Assembly: GCA_012026795.1 (NCBI GenBank)
Contig: VEPM01000007.1
Location: 62,001 to 126,000, forward strand
Direction: 5' to 3'
Length of the DNA stretch: 64,000 nucleotides
From: Candidatus Methanoperedens sp.
GTDB lineage: Archaea; Halobacteriota; Methanosarcinia; Methanosarcinales; Methanoperedenaceae
The position numbers and the translations under genes are program-made. The notes beneath the pieces are model-generated. The model searched no databases. It was not told the DNA's origin and saw only the letters and a list, made by a program, of their open reading frames with translations. This document shows, in pieces, positions 2,059-33,391 of this stretch (position 1 is its first letter; every line of letters starts with the position of its first letter).

Positions 2059-3501
2059 TTATTTCTTAAACGCTTCCAAAAAAGCCTGGGACGGCGTCTT
2101 TGTAGGATTGCCTGATAATAAACCGGAGTATTCACTAAAAGGCAGCTTGATTTCAGCTCCATTTTTAGTGATAACGATCTCCCTTATTTCCTTATCATGG
2201 TCGCTTCCCTTCATCTTAAGTACTGATATAGCTTTTCGCATCTCGCTTTTTATCTCCACGTACCGAAGCAGTATAACTGTATCCAGAAATGGGGAGATAC
2301 CCATCCCTGTGATCTGCGTAGCTCCTGTCAGGTTTGAAGTCTCATTTGTATAGACTGCGGTTATATTCTTATTCTTTAAAATGTTACTGACCGTCCCCAT
2401 ATATTCAGGTAGTTGTGCATATTGGGGTAACATCCTCTGTAGTCTTCCTGTCCCATCCAGCAATAAACGTTTAGCTTTTATAATGTCAATCGTCTCTTCG
2501 ATCTTAAGAGCCAGTTCATATGCATCATATTCAAGAGGAGAGATCATTTTCAGGAGGTTTTTATTTTCATATTCCTCCAGGTTCCAATTGAACATTTTAG
2601 AATTTTCGCGGATTTGTTCCAGGTCCTCTTCAAAAGAAACTATTATACCAGGTTCATTTTTTAAGAGACCATCCATGATGAATTGTATTCCAAGTATTGT
2701 CTTCCCTGTCCCGCTTGATCCTGAAATTAATATTGAAGAACCACGTACGAAGCCCCCACCAGTCATTTTATCCAGTCCCTTTATACCTGTTGATATCCGT
2801 TCATTGAATACAGATTTCCTGGCTATTGGGTGTATTCTGGAGAATACTACAAATCCATCTTTATTGATCTTGCACGAATGTTTACCTCCCTGAATTTCCT
2901 GCCCTCTCATTTTGAGAACATTCAGGTATCTGATGTTTTTCTCATAAAATGGCTCATTGCTGATCTGGATTATACCATCGACCATGTAACTCAGTGTACT
3001 CTTAATAAGCTCTTCCCCTGTAAATTCCCCTGTTAATAGGACAAGAGAATTCCATCCTTTCATGCTGGTAAAAAAATCATAGTAGAACTGTCGCTGTGAT
3101 TCGCTGTCAAGTCCATAAGCAAACACGTTCACAGGGTCAATGACGATCCTGTCAGGCTTAATTATTTCAATATTTTGTTCCATTTCCTTAATGATTGCCT
3201 CAGAGCCCTTATGAATGATATCGACACCTATAGGCACATACTTAATATTACCTTTTCCAAGAAGCGAAATATTATAGAACGAGAATTGTGACATGAAGTT
3301 ATTGATCATTGCAATTGGCTCGGAAATTGCAGTTATGTACATACAGATTTCCTCATTTTTTGCAGAGTTAAAAATTGATTGCATTACAAATGTTGTTTTT
3401 CCAGTCCCGGCAGTACCTGCTATCAATATAATTGAAGGTCTGAGGAAGCCTCCATTAAGCACTTTGTCAAGACCTTTTACTCCTGTTATAACCTGCTTCA
3501 T
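2059..3501 (-). CDS. KaiC-like double RecA-fold ATPase
   Basis: A 480-residue protein made of two tandem KaiC/RadA-type ATPase domains. Domain 1 (about 1-230) has Walker A GTAGTGKTTF and a Walker B strand ending in RIVIDP. Domain 2 (about 235-470) has Walker A GSSGTGKTIL, an acidic pair in IVSFEED at the usual catalytic-glutamate position, and a Walker B RLLLDG. Archaeal KaiC-like proteins of this layout are thought to act in signal transduction rather than a circadian clock (family knowledge). It follows a roadblock gene and precedes two membrane proteins and a binding-protein/sensor pair, so it is a likely ATP-dependent switch in that pathway. Confidence 0.9.
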   Translation of the reverse strand: MKQVITGVKGLDKVLNGGFLRPSIILIAGTAGTGKTTFVMQSIFNSAKNEEICMYITAISEPIAMINNFMSQFSFYNISLLGKGNIKYVPIGVDIIHKGSEAIIKEMEQNIEIIKPDRIVIDPVNVFAYGLDSESQRQFYYDFFTSMKGWNSLVLLTGEFTGEELIKSTLSYMVDGIIQISNEPFYEKNIRYLNVLKMRGQEIQGGKHSCKINKDGFVVFSRIHPIARKSVFNERISTGIKGLDKMTGGGFVRGSSILISGSSGTGKTILGIQFIMDGLLKNEPGIIVSFEEDLEQIRENSKMFNWNLEEYENKNLLKMISPLEYDAYELALKIEETIDIIKAKRLLLDGTGRLQRMLPQYAQLPEYMGTVSNILKNKNITAVYTNETSNLTGATQITGMGISPFLDTVILLRYVEIKSEMRKAISVLKMKGSDHDKEIREIVITKNGAEIKLPFSEYSGLLSGNPTKTPSQAFLEAFKK

Positions 3502-16524: not shown

Positions 16525-18696
16525 TTAACGGTTTAACTTGAAAACCCGCACATCCCCGTATTCAAATACTTTATCAAACACTTCAGGATGTCTCTCAAAA
16601 AGTCCCGGATTCCTGAATCGTTTTACTTCAGCCTCACCAAAATAAACATACGAAACGTTATATTTCCTCAAAAGCTGATATACTTCCGTAATATCGCCTG
16701 ATCTGTACATTTTATCTACATCTGACCAGCGCGTATCTATTTCGCTCCTTTTCGGGAATCTCCAGTTAAGTTCATGCCCTGCCCATCCTATTACTGTTGG
16801 AAGTCCCGTAAAGGTTGTTATGGCAGTATTCCATTCATATAATTCACCAGGCGCCTGCAGGATAACGGGCTGTCCGGTTATATTCCTGAACCATAATATG
16901 GCCTGGTAGTCCTGCGGATGTTCTTTTTTCACATACGTCATGCCATCAAGCTCAGGAACACCGTTGAAACTTCCGGATTTTCCGATAGTAGCAAAAACAG
17001 GATATATGGAAACCAGCAGGATGAGGGCGATGGCTGCAATTCCCCATGCTTTTTTTGAATTAAAATAATCACGCAGACAGAATACGATATAACCAGCGCA
17101 AATGCCCCAGATGACCCAGTTCTGGAGATACATTTTAAAAACTGTATTCAGGCGAATAAAAATCATATTTCCGCTTCCCAGCGCGTCCTGGATATAAAAA
17201 AATTCACAAAAAAGGGATATGAATACGCCGGTAAGGATTAATATCAAAATAAAAACATTATTTTTATCCCTCTCTTTTAAAATAGAAAATATAGATAGAA
17301 CAAGAAGAGGTATCAGTAGGATCAAAAGTTCGAATTCATTGGTTTTCGGGTTTGTCTCAATATTAAAAATAAATTGCCTGAACTCAAATAACGTTATTGA
17401 TGCGGCTATTCCCAATAAGATTAGTGATAATTTGAATATATTTTTATTATAATTCCGGATGTTCCTCAGAACAAAAATGTAAATAAGGAACAGGAATAAT
17501 CCATAAATAGCTATATAAAAAATCAAAGATGTTCTTCCGGAAGGAACTAATGAAATAGTCTTGTCTATTTTATATGAAAGATGGTACGGTAGATATAATA
17601 GATAACTTACAGCGACCAGTGATGCTATTGATGCAAATGAGATTAGGTAAAATTTCGTTTTTGTTTGATGATTTTTTGAAATTTGATAATTAAATATCTG
17701 GTTGCAACCGATTACCATAACCGCCAAAAACAGATACACAGGATAATCCCATGTATTCAGCGGATACAAAAAACCTATGGACAAACCCACAACCAGGATT
17801 GAACGCCAATCAATAGAATCGGATTTCATTATATTCAGCAGAAGAAGAATTACCAGAAGCTGGAAGGTAATTGATATCATGTGTGGATGTAAATCACCCT
17901 GGAGGAAGCTGAAATATGGAAATTCATTAATAGTATCGGGGATAACGCGCGAACTTGTCCAGTAATTAAAAGACATCATGTTGTTGAGCGCATTTTCTTT
18001 CATGGAAATATCCGCCAGCTGGAAAAAACCTACAAGATTTCCTGCGACTGTAACGAAAAATGCAGTGAGAAACCCATACTTTATTCGTTCAGTAATATTG
18101 AATCCGATACCGAAAGCTGTCGTGAAAGATAAAGCAAAAAAAGAAGCCGTAGCAAGATTAAAGGCTATTGATGGTAATATTCCTGTAATATTTATTAAAT
18201 TAGAAACTACAAGATAGCCAAAATAATAATAATATGTCACAGTGCCTGACATCCACGGGTCAGGAGGAGGAAAACCAGTGGTTCGAAGCATGCTGTTAAT
18301 GAATGTCATGTCCATGAATTTCTCACCACCGGTCCAGTAAATGTCGGGACTGTAAGCGCGTACCAATGCAAATATCAAAAAAGTAAGTAAAAATATTATC
18401 TCAAATTTAAGAATATATTTTTTTTCAAAATGGACAAATCCTTTTTTTATATATATCAAAAACGAAAATACTGCTATAACAACCAATGAAAGCAGTATGG
18501 AATTATAAGAATAACCGATAACAATAGAAATGATCCAGCTAATATATGTAACGAGCAATAATCCCAGGGGCTTCGAAATGCAATAACCGGAATCTTTTAT
18601 ATTCCTGCACAAATAATACGAAATCGGAAGGGTTATAAAACCTATGATCTCTAAAACAATCCACCAGATTGCAATATCAAACGGGTTCAATCCCAT
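16525..18696 (-). CDS. DUF2298 (YYY) polytopic membrane protein
   Basis: A 723-residue protein with about 14-16 membrane helices. The signature run of tyrosines is present near residue 150 in SGTVTYYYYFGYLVV, with DPWMSG just before it and QGDLHPHMIS about 110 residues later, as in the Chlor_Arch_YYY family. The C-terminal soluble portion (about 590-723) includes GWAGHELNWRFPKRSEIDTRWSDV. The family is thought to be GT-C-like membrane glycosyltransferases (family inference). It overlaps the upstream GT2 gene by ten bases; a GT2 making a lipid-linked sugar donor for a GT-C enzyme is a common pairing. Confidence 0.88.
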   Translation of the reverse strand: MGLNPFDIAIWWIVLEIIGFITLPISYYLCRNIKDSGYCISKPLGLLLVTYISWIISIVIGYSYNSILLSLVVIAVFSFLIYIKKGFVHFEKKYILKFEIIFLLTFLIFALVRAYSPDIYWTGGEKFMDMTFINSMLRTTGFPPPDPWMSGTVTYYYYFGYLVVSNLINITGILPSIAFNLATASFFALSFTTAFGIGFNITERIKYGFLTAFFVTVAGNLVGFFQLADISMKENALNNMMSFNYWTSSRVIPDTINEFPYFSFLQGDLHPHMISITFQLLVILLLLNIMKSDSIDWRSILVVGLSIGFLYPLNTWDYPVYLFLAVMVIGCNQIFNYQISKNHQTKTKFYLISFASIASLVAVSYLLYLPYHLSYKIDKTISLVPSGRTSLIFYIAIYGLFLFLIYIFVLRNIRNYNKNIFKLSLILLGIAASITLFEFRQFIFNIETNPKTNEFELLILLIPLLVLSIFSILKERDKNNVFILILILTGVFISLFCEFFYIQDALGSGNMIFIRLNTVFKMYLQNWVIWGICAGYIVFCLRDYFNSKKAWGIAAIALILLVSIYPVFATIGKSGSFNGVPELDGMTYVKKEHPQDYQAILWFRNITGQPVILQAPGELYEWNTAITTFTGLPTVIGWAGHELNWRFPKRSEIDTRWSDVDKMYRSGDITEVYQLLRKYNVSYVYFGEAEVKRFRNPGLFERHPEVFDKVFEYGDVRVFKLNR

Positions 18697-19394
18697 AAGA
18701 ATTCATACCATATCCTGAATATCTGGGATCCCATTCCGAAGACATCTTTTACGAGGTTGACCTTGGTTGTGCCGCCATGCTTCCAGACCACCGGAAATTC
18801 CTTTACCCTGTATCCGGCGCGCTGTGCTTTCACAAACAATTCAGTATCCCAGAACCAGTGTGTATCTTTGATTTCATCCATTAACGCAAACAGTGCTTCG
18901 CGCCTGAAGGATTTGAAACCGCACTGGTGATCATAGAGCTTCGAACCAAGCATCAGGCGCGTCAGGTAATTGAAACCTTTGCTTGCAAATCCTCTTTTGA
19001 AAGGCCGCTTGACACTGCTTTCCGGAAGCATCCGTGAACCTGTGGAAAAATCATATCCATCACGGATAGATTGGATCAACTCTTTTAGATGATTCATATC
19101 AGTTGCAAGGTCGACATCTATGTATCCCAGGATTTCTCCTTTTGATGCTTTAAATGCCCGGTTCAGGGCTCGTCCTCTTCCCTGGCGTTTTTCCGAATGC
19201 AGATGTATCACGAAATTATATTTTCTTTCAAGGGATTCACATATTTTATCAGTGCCATCAATGCTGCCATCCTCAGCTATTATTATTTCAAACGATGATG
19301 CGATTTCACGGAGGGCTTGCGCTGTTCGCTCAACAGTTCCTTCAATTCGTTTCGCTTCATTATAGGCAGGAAGGACAATTGAAACCTCTAATAT
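18687..19394 (-). CDS. GT2 glycosyltransferase (dolichyl-phosphate sugar synthase type), apparent ATA start
   Basis: A GT-A glycosyltransferase of about 235 residues. The N-terminal signature LEVSIVLPAYNEAKRIEGT lies upstream of any ATG/GTG/TTG in frame. It continues with EDGSIDGT, GRGRALNRAF, the DxD-like GYIDVDLATD, TGSRM and QCGFKSFRREA, as in dolichyl-phosphate mannose synthases. In frame, a TAG lies at 19410-19408, so the start must fall between there and 19390. GGAGGTG at 19406-19400 sits five bases before an ATA at 19394, which is the best-placed start. The first GTG would delete the nucleotide-binding strand. Its product probably feeds the overlapping DUF2298 protein. Confidence 0.85.
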   Translation of the reverse strand: MLEVSIVLPAYNEAKRIEGTVERTAQALREIASSFEIIIAEDGSIDGTDKICESLERKYNFVIHLHSEKRQGRGRALNRAFKASKGEILGYIDVDLATDMNHLKELIQSIRDGYDFSTGSRMLPESSVKRPFKRGFASKGFNYLTRLMLGSKLYDHQCGFKSFRREALFALMDEIKDTHWFWDTELFVKAQRAGYRVKEFPVVWKHGGTTKVNLVKDVFGMGSQIFRIWYEFLWD

Positions 19395-19489
19395 ATGAAC
19401 ACCTCCCTATTTAAATAGAAAAAGGTCACATTAAAAAATGAATTTAGTTTATATATGACGAAATTAAACCGGATCAATATGAGTTAACC

Positions 19490-29891: not shown

Positions 29892-30170
29892 TTGAACCTG
29901 AAGATCGAACCAATTGGTATTATCAAGAACACCGGACCCGGATTATCAGATATATTAATATATTCTGATTATGAACATGTTCTTGGGAATTTCCTGGAAC
30001 GATTCGAAAAAGGAACAAAAGTGCTTATTATCCATAAAAATACGGAATCCCGGGATGAACATCAGGTCAAGGTCACGTCAACTGAATTAATAAACCGCAA
30101 AGGCAATCTCCTGACAGTAAAAGGGATTGAAGCAGATAACGATTCAGTAATAGATGTAAGAATGGGATAA
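29892..30170 (+). CDS. Small TrmO/UPF0066-like protein, lacking the SAM-binding centre
   Basis: A 92-residue protein starting at TTG 29892, six bases after AGAGGTC. The N-terminus KIEPIGIIKNT and the C-terminus VTSTELINRKGNLLTVKGIEADNDSVIDV resemble the two ends of TrmO (tRNA m6t6A methyltransferase), which is normally 130-230 residues. The middle with the RSPxRPNPIG motif is absent, so methyl transfer is doubtful. It may be a structural remnant put to another use. fen follows 16 bases later. Confidence 0.55.
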   Translation: MNLKIEPIGIIKNTGPGLSDILIYSDYEHVLGNFLERFEKGTKVLIIHKNTESRDEHQVKVTSTELINRKGNLLTVKGIEADNDSVIDVRMG

Positions 30171-30186
30171 ACTTTGAGGTGTTATC

Positions 30187-31203
30187 ATAGGGGTTGACCT
30201 GGGTGATATTTTCGAACGAAACGAAATTGAGTTTTCCGACCTGAAAGGAAAAGTAATAGCCATAGATGCTTACAATACGCTTTACCAGTTCCTTAGTATA
30301 ATACGCCAGCGCGATGGTACACCGCTTATTGATTCACACGGGGAGATAACATCCCATCTTTCAGGTTTCCTTTACAGGACAACAAACCTCATCGAAGAGG
30401 GGATAAAGCCTGTATTTGTTTTTGATGGTACACCCCCTGAATTTAAAAATAAAATAATTGAAGAACGAAAAAAAATAAGGGCAAATGCACAGGAAAAATG
30501 GGATGAGGCAAAAGCAAGGGGAGAAGATGAAGAAGCATTCAAACATGCACAGGCATCATCCCGTATCCAGGGAAATATGATAGAAGATGCAAAACTTCTG
30601 CTCAAGGCTATGGGTATTCCTGTCATCCAGGCGCCGTCTGAAGGGGAAGCACAGGCTTCATCAATTGTAAGGGATGGCAAAGCTTATGCCGTTGGTTCCC
30701 AGGATTATGATGCACTTTTGTTCGGTGCGCCTGTTGTCGTAAGGAATCTTGCAGTAACGGGGAAACGAAAGCTTGCTGGAAAGAGCATATTCCTGGAAGT
30801 AAAACCTGAGCTTATCGAACTTGAAAAAGGACTTGACGCACTGGGTATTTCAAGGGAACAACTTGTGGATATTGCGCTTCTCGTGGGAACAGATTATAAT
30901 GATGGCATAAAAGGAATAGGCCCAAGGAAGGCTTTGAAATTGATAAAAAAACATACGGGGATTGAAGCTGTGCTTCTTGAATTAAAAACGGAGATCAAAA
31001 ACCTCACTGAAATAAAAAATTTATTCCTTAACCCTCCTGTAACATCCGAATATGAGATTAAGTGGAAAAAACCGGATCCTGAGGCCATCATGAAATTCCT
31101 ATGTGATGACCATGATTTTTCACAAGCCCGTGTTTCAAAAGCTGTCGAACGCTTGCTTGATGCCTCGGATGAGGGACAAAAGACCCTTGATAAGTGGTTT
31201 TAA
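30187..31203 (+). CDS. fen: Flap endonuclease 1, apparent ATA start codon
   Basis: A 338-residue structure-specific nuclease of Okazaki-fragment maturation. The N-terminal domain (DAYNTLYQFLSIIRQRDGTPL, VFVFDGTPPEFK) and internal domain (APSEGEAQASSIV, GSQDYDALLFG, LVGTDYNDGIKGIGPRKAL) hold the metal-binding acids. The tail QKTLDKWF is a PCNA-binding box. Homologues begin MGVDxGD; here that position is encoded ATA-GGG-GTT-GAC, with GAGGTG five bases upstream and an in-frame TGA at 30175-30177. The first in-frame ATG is at 30577, which would remove the whole N-terminal catalytic half. So ATA at 30187 is the only sensible start. It ends four bases into the convergent zinc-ribbon gene. Confidence 0.93.
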   Translation: MGVDLGDIFERNEIEFSDLKGKVIAIDAYNTLYQFLSIIRQRDGTPLIDSHGEITSHLSGFLYRTTNLIEEGIKPVFVFDGTPPEFKNKIIEERKKIRANAQEKWDEAKARGEDEEAFKHAQASSRIQGNMIEDAKLLLKAMGIPVIQAPSEGEAQASSIVRDGKAYAVGSQDYDALLFGAPVVVRNLAVTGKRKLAGKSIFLEVKPELIELEKGLDALGISREQLVDIALLVGTDYNDGIKGIGPRKALKLIKKHTGIEAVLLELKTEIKNLTEIKNLFLNPPVTSEYEIKWKKPDPEAIMKFLCDDHDFSQARVSKAVERLLDASDEGQKTLDKWF

Positions 31204-31706
31204 GCCGTGAACTGTGGCGAGAAATATTTCTTGATAATAGTATCGCACTTATCACATTTTATCATGAACCAGTTTCCTTCATCCTGTTTATCATAGTGGT
31301 CGAACATGGATGAACCGCATCCCTTGCAGGTAGAAAAATCCTTGAAATAATAACTATAGAATTCAGGGTTGCCGCTTAGCCATTTCGTAGTCTGGAGCAG
31401 CCGTTCGAGATATCTCCTTCTTGCTCCTTCGGTGCCTTTCTTCATTTCCTCAGAAACATGTTCTTCCATATGTCTTATGTGATGTTTACTATTCTTTCGT
31501 ATTCTCAAATAATCACTTAAGGATTGTTGTACGGTTTCAACATAATCGTTGTACCATCTTTTTGAATCTGATCCAAGAAATTTGATTGTTCTCTTGAAAT
31601 ATTCACTCATGAGGTCTTCCATAAGATCAGCACATTCAGTACAAATATTAAAATCTTTAAAATATCTGGTATCCTGTTCACCTCTGCATATCCTGCATGT
31701 TTCCAT
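31200..31706 (-). CDS. Zinc-ribbon protein, second copy of a duplicated module
   Basis: A 168-residue protein with four CxxC knuckles: CRIC and CTEC at the N-terminus, CKGC and CDKC at the C-terminus, so probably two zinc sites. The middle is a helical region (RKNSKHHIRHMEEHV, RRYLERLLQTTKWL). It is clearly paralogous to the gene at 32287-32787. It follows the DUF22-like gene by two bases. No family name is recognised; DNA/RNA or protein binding is likely. Its stop overlaps the fen stop on the other strand. Confidence 0.75.
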   Translation of the reverse strand: METCRICRGEQDTRYFKDFNICTECADLMEDLMSEYFKRTIKFLGSDSKRWYNDYVETVQQSLSDYLRIRKNSKHHIRHMEEHVSEEMKKGTEGARRRYLERLLQTTKWLSGNPEFYSYYFKDFSTCKGCGSSMFDHYDKQDEGNWFMIKCDKCDTIIKKYFSPQFTA

Positions 31707-31708
31707 AA

Positions 31709-32125
31709 TTACCCCACCTGTTGTGGTATTGTGGCTTCACGTGTAAACATTATGGGATATAGGTTAAGTACCGACAAAAGATCACCTTTTTTGATTTCCC
31801 CAGATTCCTGCCCGAGGACAAAAGCACCATTTATAATGCGGTCTGTTTCAATGGGTGATGGGCCATCCCTGGTTTTAACCTTTATAACTGATACAACAGG
31901 ATGATGGCTGAATGCGCATGGCATTGCAAGCATATCTTTCTGTACAACTATTTCTTTTACTTTTACGTTCTCAAGTTTTCCCGCGCCTATTGTAAGATCT
32001 TCATCTGCGATTAGCATTTCCCACTTTGCCCTGGTTGCTATGGTAAATTCATATGGCGATGCCTTTACTTTTTTTCGATCTACTCTTCCGTTGTTATGAG
32101 TTACTACATTTACAATTTCGTTCAT
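31709..32125 (-). CDS. DUF22-like protein, second copy
   Basis: A 138-residue protein. The frame is open to 32173, but the ATG at 32125 with GGGGG before it matches the paralogue's start. The conserved core KASPYEFTIATRAKWEMLIAD, VVQKDMLAMPCAFSHHP and QESGEIKKGDLLSVLNLYPI resembles archaeal DUF22 proteins as I remember them; the function of that family is unknown. The nearly identical gene at 32794-33210 precedes the other zinc-ribbon copy, so the two proteins appear to work as a pair. Confidence 0.7.
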   Translation of the reverse strand: MNEIVNVVTHNNGRVDRKKVKASPYEFTIATRAKWEMLIADEDLTIGAGKLENVKVKEIVVQKDMLAMPCAFSHHPVVSVIKVKTRDGPSPIETDRIINGAFVLGQESGEIKKGDLLSVLNLYPIMFTREATIPQQVG

Positions 32126-32286
32126 TAGAACCCCCATTAGATAACTACTGCAATAGTACTTATATTTTATCACGACTAATCATTATAAATTTATTTTAGC
32201 CTTAATCCAAAAATTTTTGCTGCTTCGCTTTGCGTTCTTTGCGAACTGAACTAACTCAAAAAAAGAAATGAAAAAAGAAGCGTTGA

Positions 32287-32787
32287 TTATTCCACGAATT
32301 TTGGCGAAAAATACTTCTTAATAACCGTATCGCATTTATCGCATGAGATCATGAGCCAGTCTCCAACCTCCTGTTTACCATAATGGTCGAATATTGATGC
32401 ACCGCAACCAGGACATACATAATATTCCTTGAAATAATAATTGTAGAACTCCGGGCAGCGTTCAAGCCAGTTGATGGTCTGGAGGAGCCGTTCAAGATAT
32501 CTTTGCTTTCCTCCTTTTGCCCCTTTTATCTCCTCCTGCACGTGTTCTTCCATATGCTTTATATGCCTTTTACTGTGCTGTCTTATTTTCTGGTAATTGC
32601 TTATGAATTCTTTTCCATTCTCCAGGTATTTCAGATATCCTTTTTTTGTTTCTCCACTTTCACTTATTGTTCTCAGGAAATATTCGCCCATCAGGTCTTC
32701 CATGAGGTCTGCACATTCAGTACAAATATTATAGCCCCTGTAATTTTTTGAATCCTGATCTCCCTTGCATATCTTGCAGGTCTCCAT
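32287..32787 (-). CDS. Zinc-ribbon protein, first copy of a duplicated module
   Basis: A 166-residue paralogue of the protein at 31200-31706, with the same four knuckles (CKIC, CTEC, CPGC, CDKC) and the same helical centre (RQHSKRHIKHMEEHVQEEIK). The best-kept parts are the zinc sites and KKYFSP near the C-terminus. It lies six bases after its DUF22-like partner. Confidence 0.75.
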   Translation of the reverse strand: METCKICKGDQDSKNYRGYNICTECADLMEDLMGEYFLRTISESGETKKGYLKYLENGKEFISNYQKIRQHSKRHIKHMEEHVQEEIKGAKGGKQRYLERLLQTINWLERCPEFYNYYFKEYYVCPGCGASIFDHYGKQEVGDWLMISCDKCDTVIKKYFSPKFVE

Positions 32788-32793
32788 ATAATA

Positions 32794-33210
32794 TCACCCG
32801 ACGCATACAGGCCTGGTTGCTTCCCGTGTGAACATTATGGGATAAAGGTTCAGGACTGACAACAGGTCTCCTTTTCTGATCTCCCCTGATTCCTGCCCTA
32901 TAACATAAGCTACGTTTATCGTCCGATCCATTTCAACCGGAGTAGGCCCTTCTTTTGTTGCCACCTTAACGACCGAAACAAGCGGATGATGGCTGAAAGC
33001 ACAGGGTATCGCAAGCATATCCTTTTGCACCGTTATTTCTTTTACCTTAACACGCTCAAGCTTACCTGCCCCGATCGGGATATCCTCATCTGCTATTACC
33101 ATCTCCCACTTTGCCCTGGTAGCTATTGTAAATTCATATGGCGATGCCCTTACTTTTTTTCTTGATACTTTCCCATTATCGCGGGAAACCACATTTACTA
33201 CTTCACTCAT
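32794..33210 (-). CDS. DUF22-like protein, first copy
   Basis: A 138-residue paralogue of 31709-32125; most residues are shared (RASPYEFTIATRAKWEM, QKDMLAIPCAFSHHP, GDLLSVLNLYPIMFTREA). The ATG at 33210, behind AGGTGAAAGC, is preferred to the longer frame from 33240. The AT-rich sequence upstream (33241-33300) holds the likely promoter for the four-gene array. Confidence 0.7.
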   Translation of the reverse strand: MSEVVNVVSRDNGKVSRKKVRASPYEFTIATRAKWEMVIADEDIPIGAGKLERVKVKEITVQKDMLAIPCAFSHHPLVSVVKVATKEGPTPVEMDRTINVAYVIGQESGEIRKGDLLSVLNLYPIMFTREATRPVCVG

Positions 33211-33391
33211 GCTTTCACCTTTCTTTAGTATGAATATCAAAGTACTTATAGTTTATCATGTTTAATCATTATACTTATTAATCATGATATTTAATTATGT
33301 TGTGATAAATGTCGATTATGTCGATTATATTCAAAATTCCCTGACTACAAACGAAACTTTAATTAACACATAATTCCCTTGAGGTAATCCT

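Follow-up and report, generated by a model that had tools for sequence, protein, structure and literature searches.

The window, a 64,000-nucleotide stretch of a Candidatus Methanoperedens sp. contig (VEPM01000007.1), harbours the gene of an archaeal flap endonuclease 1 (fen1) on its forward strand at positions 30187-31203, which codes for 338 residues when read from an ATA codon (30187-30189). In a profile search, the product scored 502.1 bits against TIGR03674 (cut-off 351.95) and covered the profile from position 1 to 338 of 338, with position 1 falling on the ATA codon. The seven acidic residues that we take to form the FEN1 active site in Pfu numbering (D27, D80, E152, E154, D173, D175 and D236) are all present. 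The gene is the sole XPG_I match in the 3.59-Mb assembly and is therefore single-copy. Upstream, the frame is closed by a TGA codon at 30175-30177, after which it reads GGT GTT ATC ATA GGG GTT GAC CTG GGT GAT, and the product predicted from ATA begins with (M)GVDLGDIFER. Scanning of the frame revealed no ATG, GTG or TTG codon between this TGA and the ATG of Met-131 at 30577-30579. The first-pass annotation of this DNA had proposed an ATA start from the closed frame, from the alignment of the family's Met-1 with the ATA codon and from a GAGGTG motif five bases ahead of it. These points are borne out, and the ATG codons of related genomes fall on the same codon. It had also rightly placed the first canonical in-frame codon at 30577 and dismissed a later start, which would drop catalytic Asp27 and Asp80. 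The resulting loss would nevertheless amount to 38% of the protein (start at residue 131 of 338), not to half of it.

The GAGGTG Shine-Dalgarno (SD) motif (30176-30181, + strand) lies 5 nt upstream of the ATA codon, a distance that is also the most frequent one at the 128 starts with a clear SD in this genome. It is predicted to form six Watson-Crick pairs (-9.5 kcal/mol); this and all other duplex energies given here were computed with an assumed anti-SD, the 3' end of the 16S rRNA being absent from the sequence examined. A hairpin is predicted over the fen1 start (-14.3 kcal/mol, -40 to +40), a point against the use of ATA. On the same strand, a small gene of approximately 92 codons (29892-30170, TTG start assumed) ends 16 nt 5' of the ATA codon, making an operon and translational coupling with fen1 possible. 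An orthologous frame of this small gene is found in the related genome G018 (BLZ2), and the profile search yielded no NCBIfam or Pfam match for it. On the minus strand at 31200-33252, the window contains two adjacent copies of a gene pair coding for a small Cys-rich protein and a DUF22 protein. Compared with the same stretch of the G018 contig, the second copy is 94% and the first 73% identical.

We compared the fen1 start with those of 29 related genomes, 27 from the same genus and two from a sister genus. All 29 have ATG at the codon corresponding to ATA, including the closest relative (96% protein identity), and ATA is thus specific to this genome (G000). fen1 therefore combines a conserved domain devoid of an upstream canonical start and a well-spaced SD with a start codon that is not conserved in relatives. 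The first-pass annotation had held that ATG or GTG in close relatives would refute its proposal, and ATG is what the relatives have. From these alignments, the ATG codons show the ATA of fen1 to be derived here, and on their own they do not tell a mutation from an assembly error. Further archaeal fen1 loci have ATG starts, with a few GTG or TTG and one ATT. The latter belongs to the Bathyarchaeota MAG RS_9_1 (locus L108, ATT at the Met-1 codon, 2998-3000), in which a GGAGG motif is located rather far upstream. A pattern search for ATH preceding GVDLGD, the commonest fen1 N-terminal motif, in 186 genomes of the order returned this fen1 and two unrelated frames. The matches in G173 and G175 (ATCGGGGTGGAT...) are not fen1 and sit inside a corrinoid-protein-like frame.

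In the fen1 tree, this genome is placed beside G018, with G003 next. Given this placement and the ATG codons of the relatives, ATA is derived on the G000 branch. That branch is longer than that of G018 (0.05 versus 0.023), but its codon changes are mostly synonymous (19 synonymous, 3 non-synonymous), and dN/dS between the two genomes is 0.069. These values indicate that fen1 is under purifying selection; they do not date the start change, which could be later. The motif upstream of the start is a perfect GAGGTG on the G000 branch and GGGGGG(G) in G018 and G021. We considered a compensatory strengthening of the SD and do not claim it, since the duplex energies are equal (-9.5 versus -9.8/-10.0 kcal/mol in G018/G021). 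G021 (uncultured archaeon LFW-24) was omitted from the tree owing to an in-frame TAG at codon 269 of its fen1 (L004), where G018 has GAG; a mutation, an error or amber readthrough are the possible readings of this codon.

A second ATA start was noticed when the genes of the window were compared with G018, as a conserved frame without a canonical start. This gene (18687-19394, minus strand) codes for a GT2-family glycosyltransferase (PF00535, 3.8e-30), with its putative ATA start at 19392-19394 and, 5 nt upstream, a GGAGGTG SD motif (19400-19406, minus strand; -16.2 kcal/mol). The frame reads TAG GGA GGT GTT CAT ATA TTA GAG GTT TCA, and the domain starts from EVSIVLPAYNE. No canonical start lies upstream, and the next one is reached only after 59 codons of the aligned domain. 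The N-terminal peptide predicted for this genome, with ATA read as Met, is MLEVSIVLPAYNEAK. Among 30 related genomes, 23 have ATA at this codon, 3 have ATG and 4 have a differently arranged start, and ATT or ATC was found in none of the 30, although these two codons account for 61% of the Ile codons in this genome. The codons flanking ATA vary freely among relatives. Absence of ATT and ATC next to variable flanks is what a start codon would show, and it does not fit a sense codon. In 18 of the 23 ATA-bearing genomes, ATG, GTG and TTG are absent in frame from the upstream stop to the domain. SD pairing in ATA genomes (mean -11.4 kcal/mol) is stronger than in the six ATG-start genomes (-5.9, -10.1, -6.5, -3.5, -4.6 and -4.6 kcal/mol; Mann-Whitney p = 8e-4, kinship not corrected for). 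Because the assemblies come from many groups, a single sequencing error cannot explain the ATA codon of this gene.

A gene-level scan, covering 2.12 Mb and 1,721 called genes of this genome, was then run to find coding frames that lack a canonical start close to the coding onset. This approach was used instead of raw motif counts of a genome-wide excess of SD-spaced ATA codons, which were swamped by SD-like sequences inside genes. The scan yielded few strong near-cognate candidates. The purH gene (G000:C8:17762-19372, + strand; L128, orthologues L252-L270) reads AAGGTGATATTTT-CTG in this genome, and each of the 19 genus members has CTG at the start of this gene, preceded by a conserved AGGTGAT SD. 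In all of these, only 3-5 codons, none of them a canonical start, separate the stop from the homologous region. With CTG 3-5 codons past the stop, no alternative purH start is possible, and the predicted N-terminus, with CUG read as Met, is MPKK... Other families of the order use TTG, GTG or ATG for purH. The gene of a conserved 78-residue protein (G000:C13:18036-18281, minus strand; L133) has ATT behind the SD AAGGTGAT in this genome and ATG in 25 genus relatives, and is a second predicted start switch specific to G000. For truD (G000:C6:60422-61780, + strand; L186, orthologues L282-L300), most genus members lack ATG, GTG and TTG near the coding onset and have ATT, ATC or ATA there; the gene probably starts at AUU, AUC or AUA, the exact codon being uncertain. 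Several other candidates were discarded. A ribonucleotide reductase gene with CTG has an in-frame GTG three codons upstream, in a 751-codon frame flagged for ATT the codon directly before it is an in-frame ATG, and the pieces of two-gene TPR candidates resemble broken genes and were not counted.

Translation of E. coli infC starts at AUU. An AUU start is also ascribed to E. coli pcnB in a study cited by PMC13009471 (its reference 73). Both share with fen1 an AUN near-cognate start, which limits expression in E. coli, and differ from it in that the codon is AUU, the system is bacterial and the regulatory logic is known. Closer parallels are found in S. aureus, where infC, ccpN and citZ have AUA starts with strong SDs and are translated, AUA reporters give approximately 10-30% of the AUG output, and the start of citZ, a central gene, is lineage-specific (PMC13009471). 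The AUA of fen1 similarly stands behind a strong SD and, like that of citZ, is restricted to one lineage; the lower output measured in S. aureus is inferred here. In contrast with fen1, initiation in S. aureus is bacterial, with IF3 and fMet, and its starts were established by ribosome profiling and reporters, whereas those of Methanoperedens are deduced from sequence comparison alone. The AUG-to-GUG and AUG-to-UUG switches described by Belinky et al. in 2017 (PMC5622118) are recent start changes, as that of fen1 would be, and their non-AUG starts go with stronger SDs, as seen for the glycosyltransferase gene. Unlike fen1, none of their 61,358 ancestral AUG starts is reported to have switched to AUA, with one switch to AUU and two to CUG (PMC5622118). 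We found no archaeal AUA start in the open-licence papers searched. The first-pass annotation was correct in calling an AUA start very unusual as far as archaea are concerned. In bacteria, however, such starts have been documented (PMC13009471), and the combination of a near-cognate codon with a strong SD is of a kind already known there.

The base call itself has to be weighed for fen1. If the consensus or the assembly were in error, the organism would have ATG and the A at 30189 would be wrong. A single substitution in one assembly would suffice, at the edge of a G-run (ATGGGGG to ATAGGGG), and would account both for the ATG of all 29 relatives and for an ATH form being present at fen1 only here among the 186 genomes of the order, as judged with the commonest motif. 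Published near-cognate switches are very rare (PMC5622118), and for an average genome we estimate the prior odds of an error and of a natural AUG-to-AUA switch to be comparable. However, the change yields a near-cognate codon behind an intact SD, near-cognate starts elsewhere in the genome are common to other assemblies, which raises the prior for a real change, and, where the sequence can be aligned to G018 (roughly 75 kb), approximately 25 orthologous genes match over their full length, without frameshifts or premature stops. Because of the genus-shared near-cognates, the good SD and these intact neighbours, the prior moves towards a real base, and we regard an error as unlikely.

A start at another non-canonical codon, or a frameshift from the upstream gene, appears highly improbable. 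The open frame does contain ATC directly before ATA, as well as GTT and GGT, but the ATC at 30184 is just 2 nt from the SD, while ATA has the best spacing and the position of the relatives' ATG. The frameshift route is blocked, as TAA at 30168-30170 ends the frame of the upstream gene and TGA at 30175 closes that of fen1. We see as little chance that fen1 is losing its function, with start loss as the first step of pseudogenisation. Such a loss might be tolerated, since fen1 can be deleted in Haloferax volcanii (PMC7776575), and the longer G000 branch would agree with it; nevertheless, this sole fen1 copy of the genome has kept a full-length frame and all its active-site acids, and the low dN/dS and the synonymous excess argue against decay, with the proviso that the start change could postdate them.

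We therefore favour the reading that ATA is the true base and is used as the start of fen1 in this Methanoperedens, which we consider likely; the codon is probably a genuine, if weak, initiation signal and not a misread base. The observation made in the first-pass annotation is confirmed and its interpretation partly supported. Under the favoured reading, the strong GAGGUG SD five bases ahead of the AUA codon (30187-30189) would place the 30S subunit, possibly assisted by ribosomes terminating on the upstream gene 16 nt before AUA. The initiator Met-tRNA, with its CAU anticodon, would pair with the AU of AUA, the mismatch at the third base being tolerated. FEN1 would still start with Met-Gly-Val-Asp, at an output below the AUG level, and the switch probably gives less protein. 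The correctness of the base, the reading of AUA by the initiator Met-tRNA and the reduced FEN1 output are all inferred. A tRNA scan of 2.1 Mb identified 23 tRNAs, including one ARAGORN-typed CAT tRNA, among which the initiator was not singled out; none of the 23 has a TAT anticodon. According to one study, aIF1 disfavours non-canonical starts in archaea (PMC6237735), which implies that this check is relaxed or overridden by the SD in Methanoperedens. That fen1 is an essential gene, as previously assumed, is not certain, essentiality differing between archaeal species: fen1 is essential in Halobacterium NRC-1 and deletable in H. volcanii (PMC7776575), and reduced FEN1 levels may therefore be tolerable.

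The larger point is the existence of a genus with several near-cognate starts, including a conserved AUA in the same window, beyond fen1 alone. The best reading of these genes is that Methanoperedens employs SD-driven near-cognate initiation on several of them, and that fen1, in a genus with such starts of longer standing, changed only recently from AUG to AUA. We more tentatively propose, at slightly less than even confidence, that the genus has relaxed start discrimination or uses near-cognates as expression limiters, with a conserved set behind strong SDs (AUA for the glycosyltransferase, CUG for purH and probably AUU/AUC/AUA for truD) to which species add members (AUA for fen1 and AUU for the 78-residue protein). 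If this is true, a conserved set of AUA starts would be described here for the first time in archaea. The glycosyltransferase and purH starts recur in numerous genomes and are independent of any single base call. Should these starts be genuine, archaeal initiation, which has aIF1/aIF2 and lacks IF3, tolerates AUA and CUG behind a strong SD. As gene finders almost never call AUA starts, such genes are truncated or missed in annotations. The AUG-to-AUA change of fen1 between sister species would provide a natural test of the need for FEN1 and of the trade-off between start codon and SD.

One near-cognate candidate of the gene-level scan, a leuA-like gene of the isopropylmalate/citramalate synthase family (G000:C18:14740-16269, minus strand; L138, orthologues L333-L361), was not counted because it has a conserved out-of-frame leader instead. 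An in-frame canonical start is missing in most of the order, and the gene is overlapped by a conserved leader ORF, M..RDR[FL]L..*, relative to which the leuA frame is +1. A 2021 review of archaeal recoding knows of one -1 case and zero +1 cases (PMC8211752). The leader, which in L337 reads ATG ACA AAC GTG AGG GAT CGT CTT TTA CAC AAT TGA, is a candidate for a programmed +1 frameshift at CGT-CTT-(T)-TAC or for a Leu-codon leader peptide.
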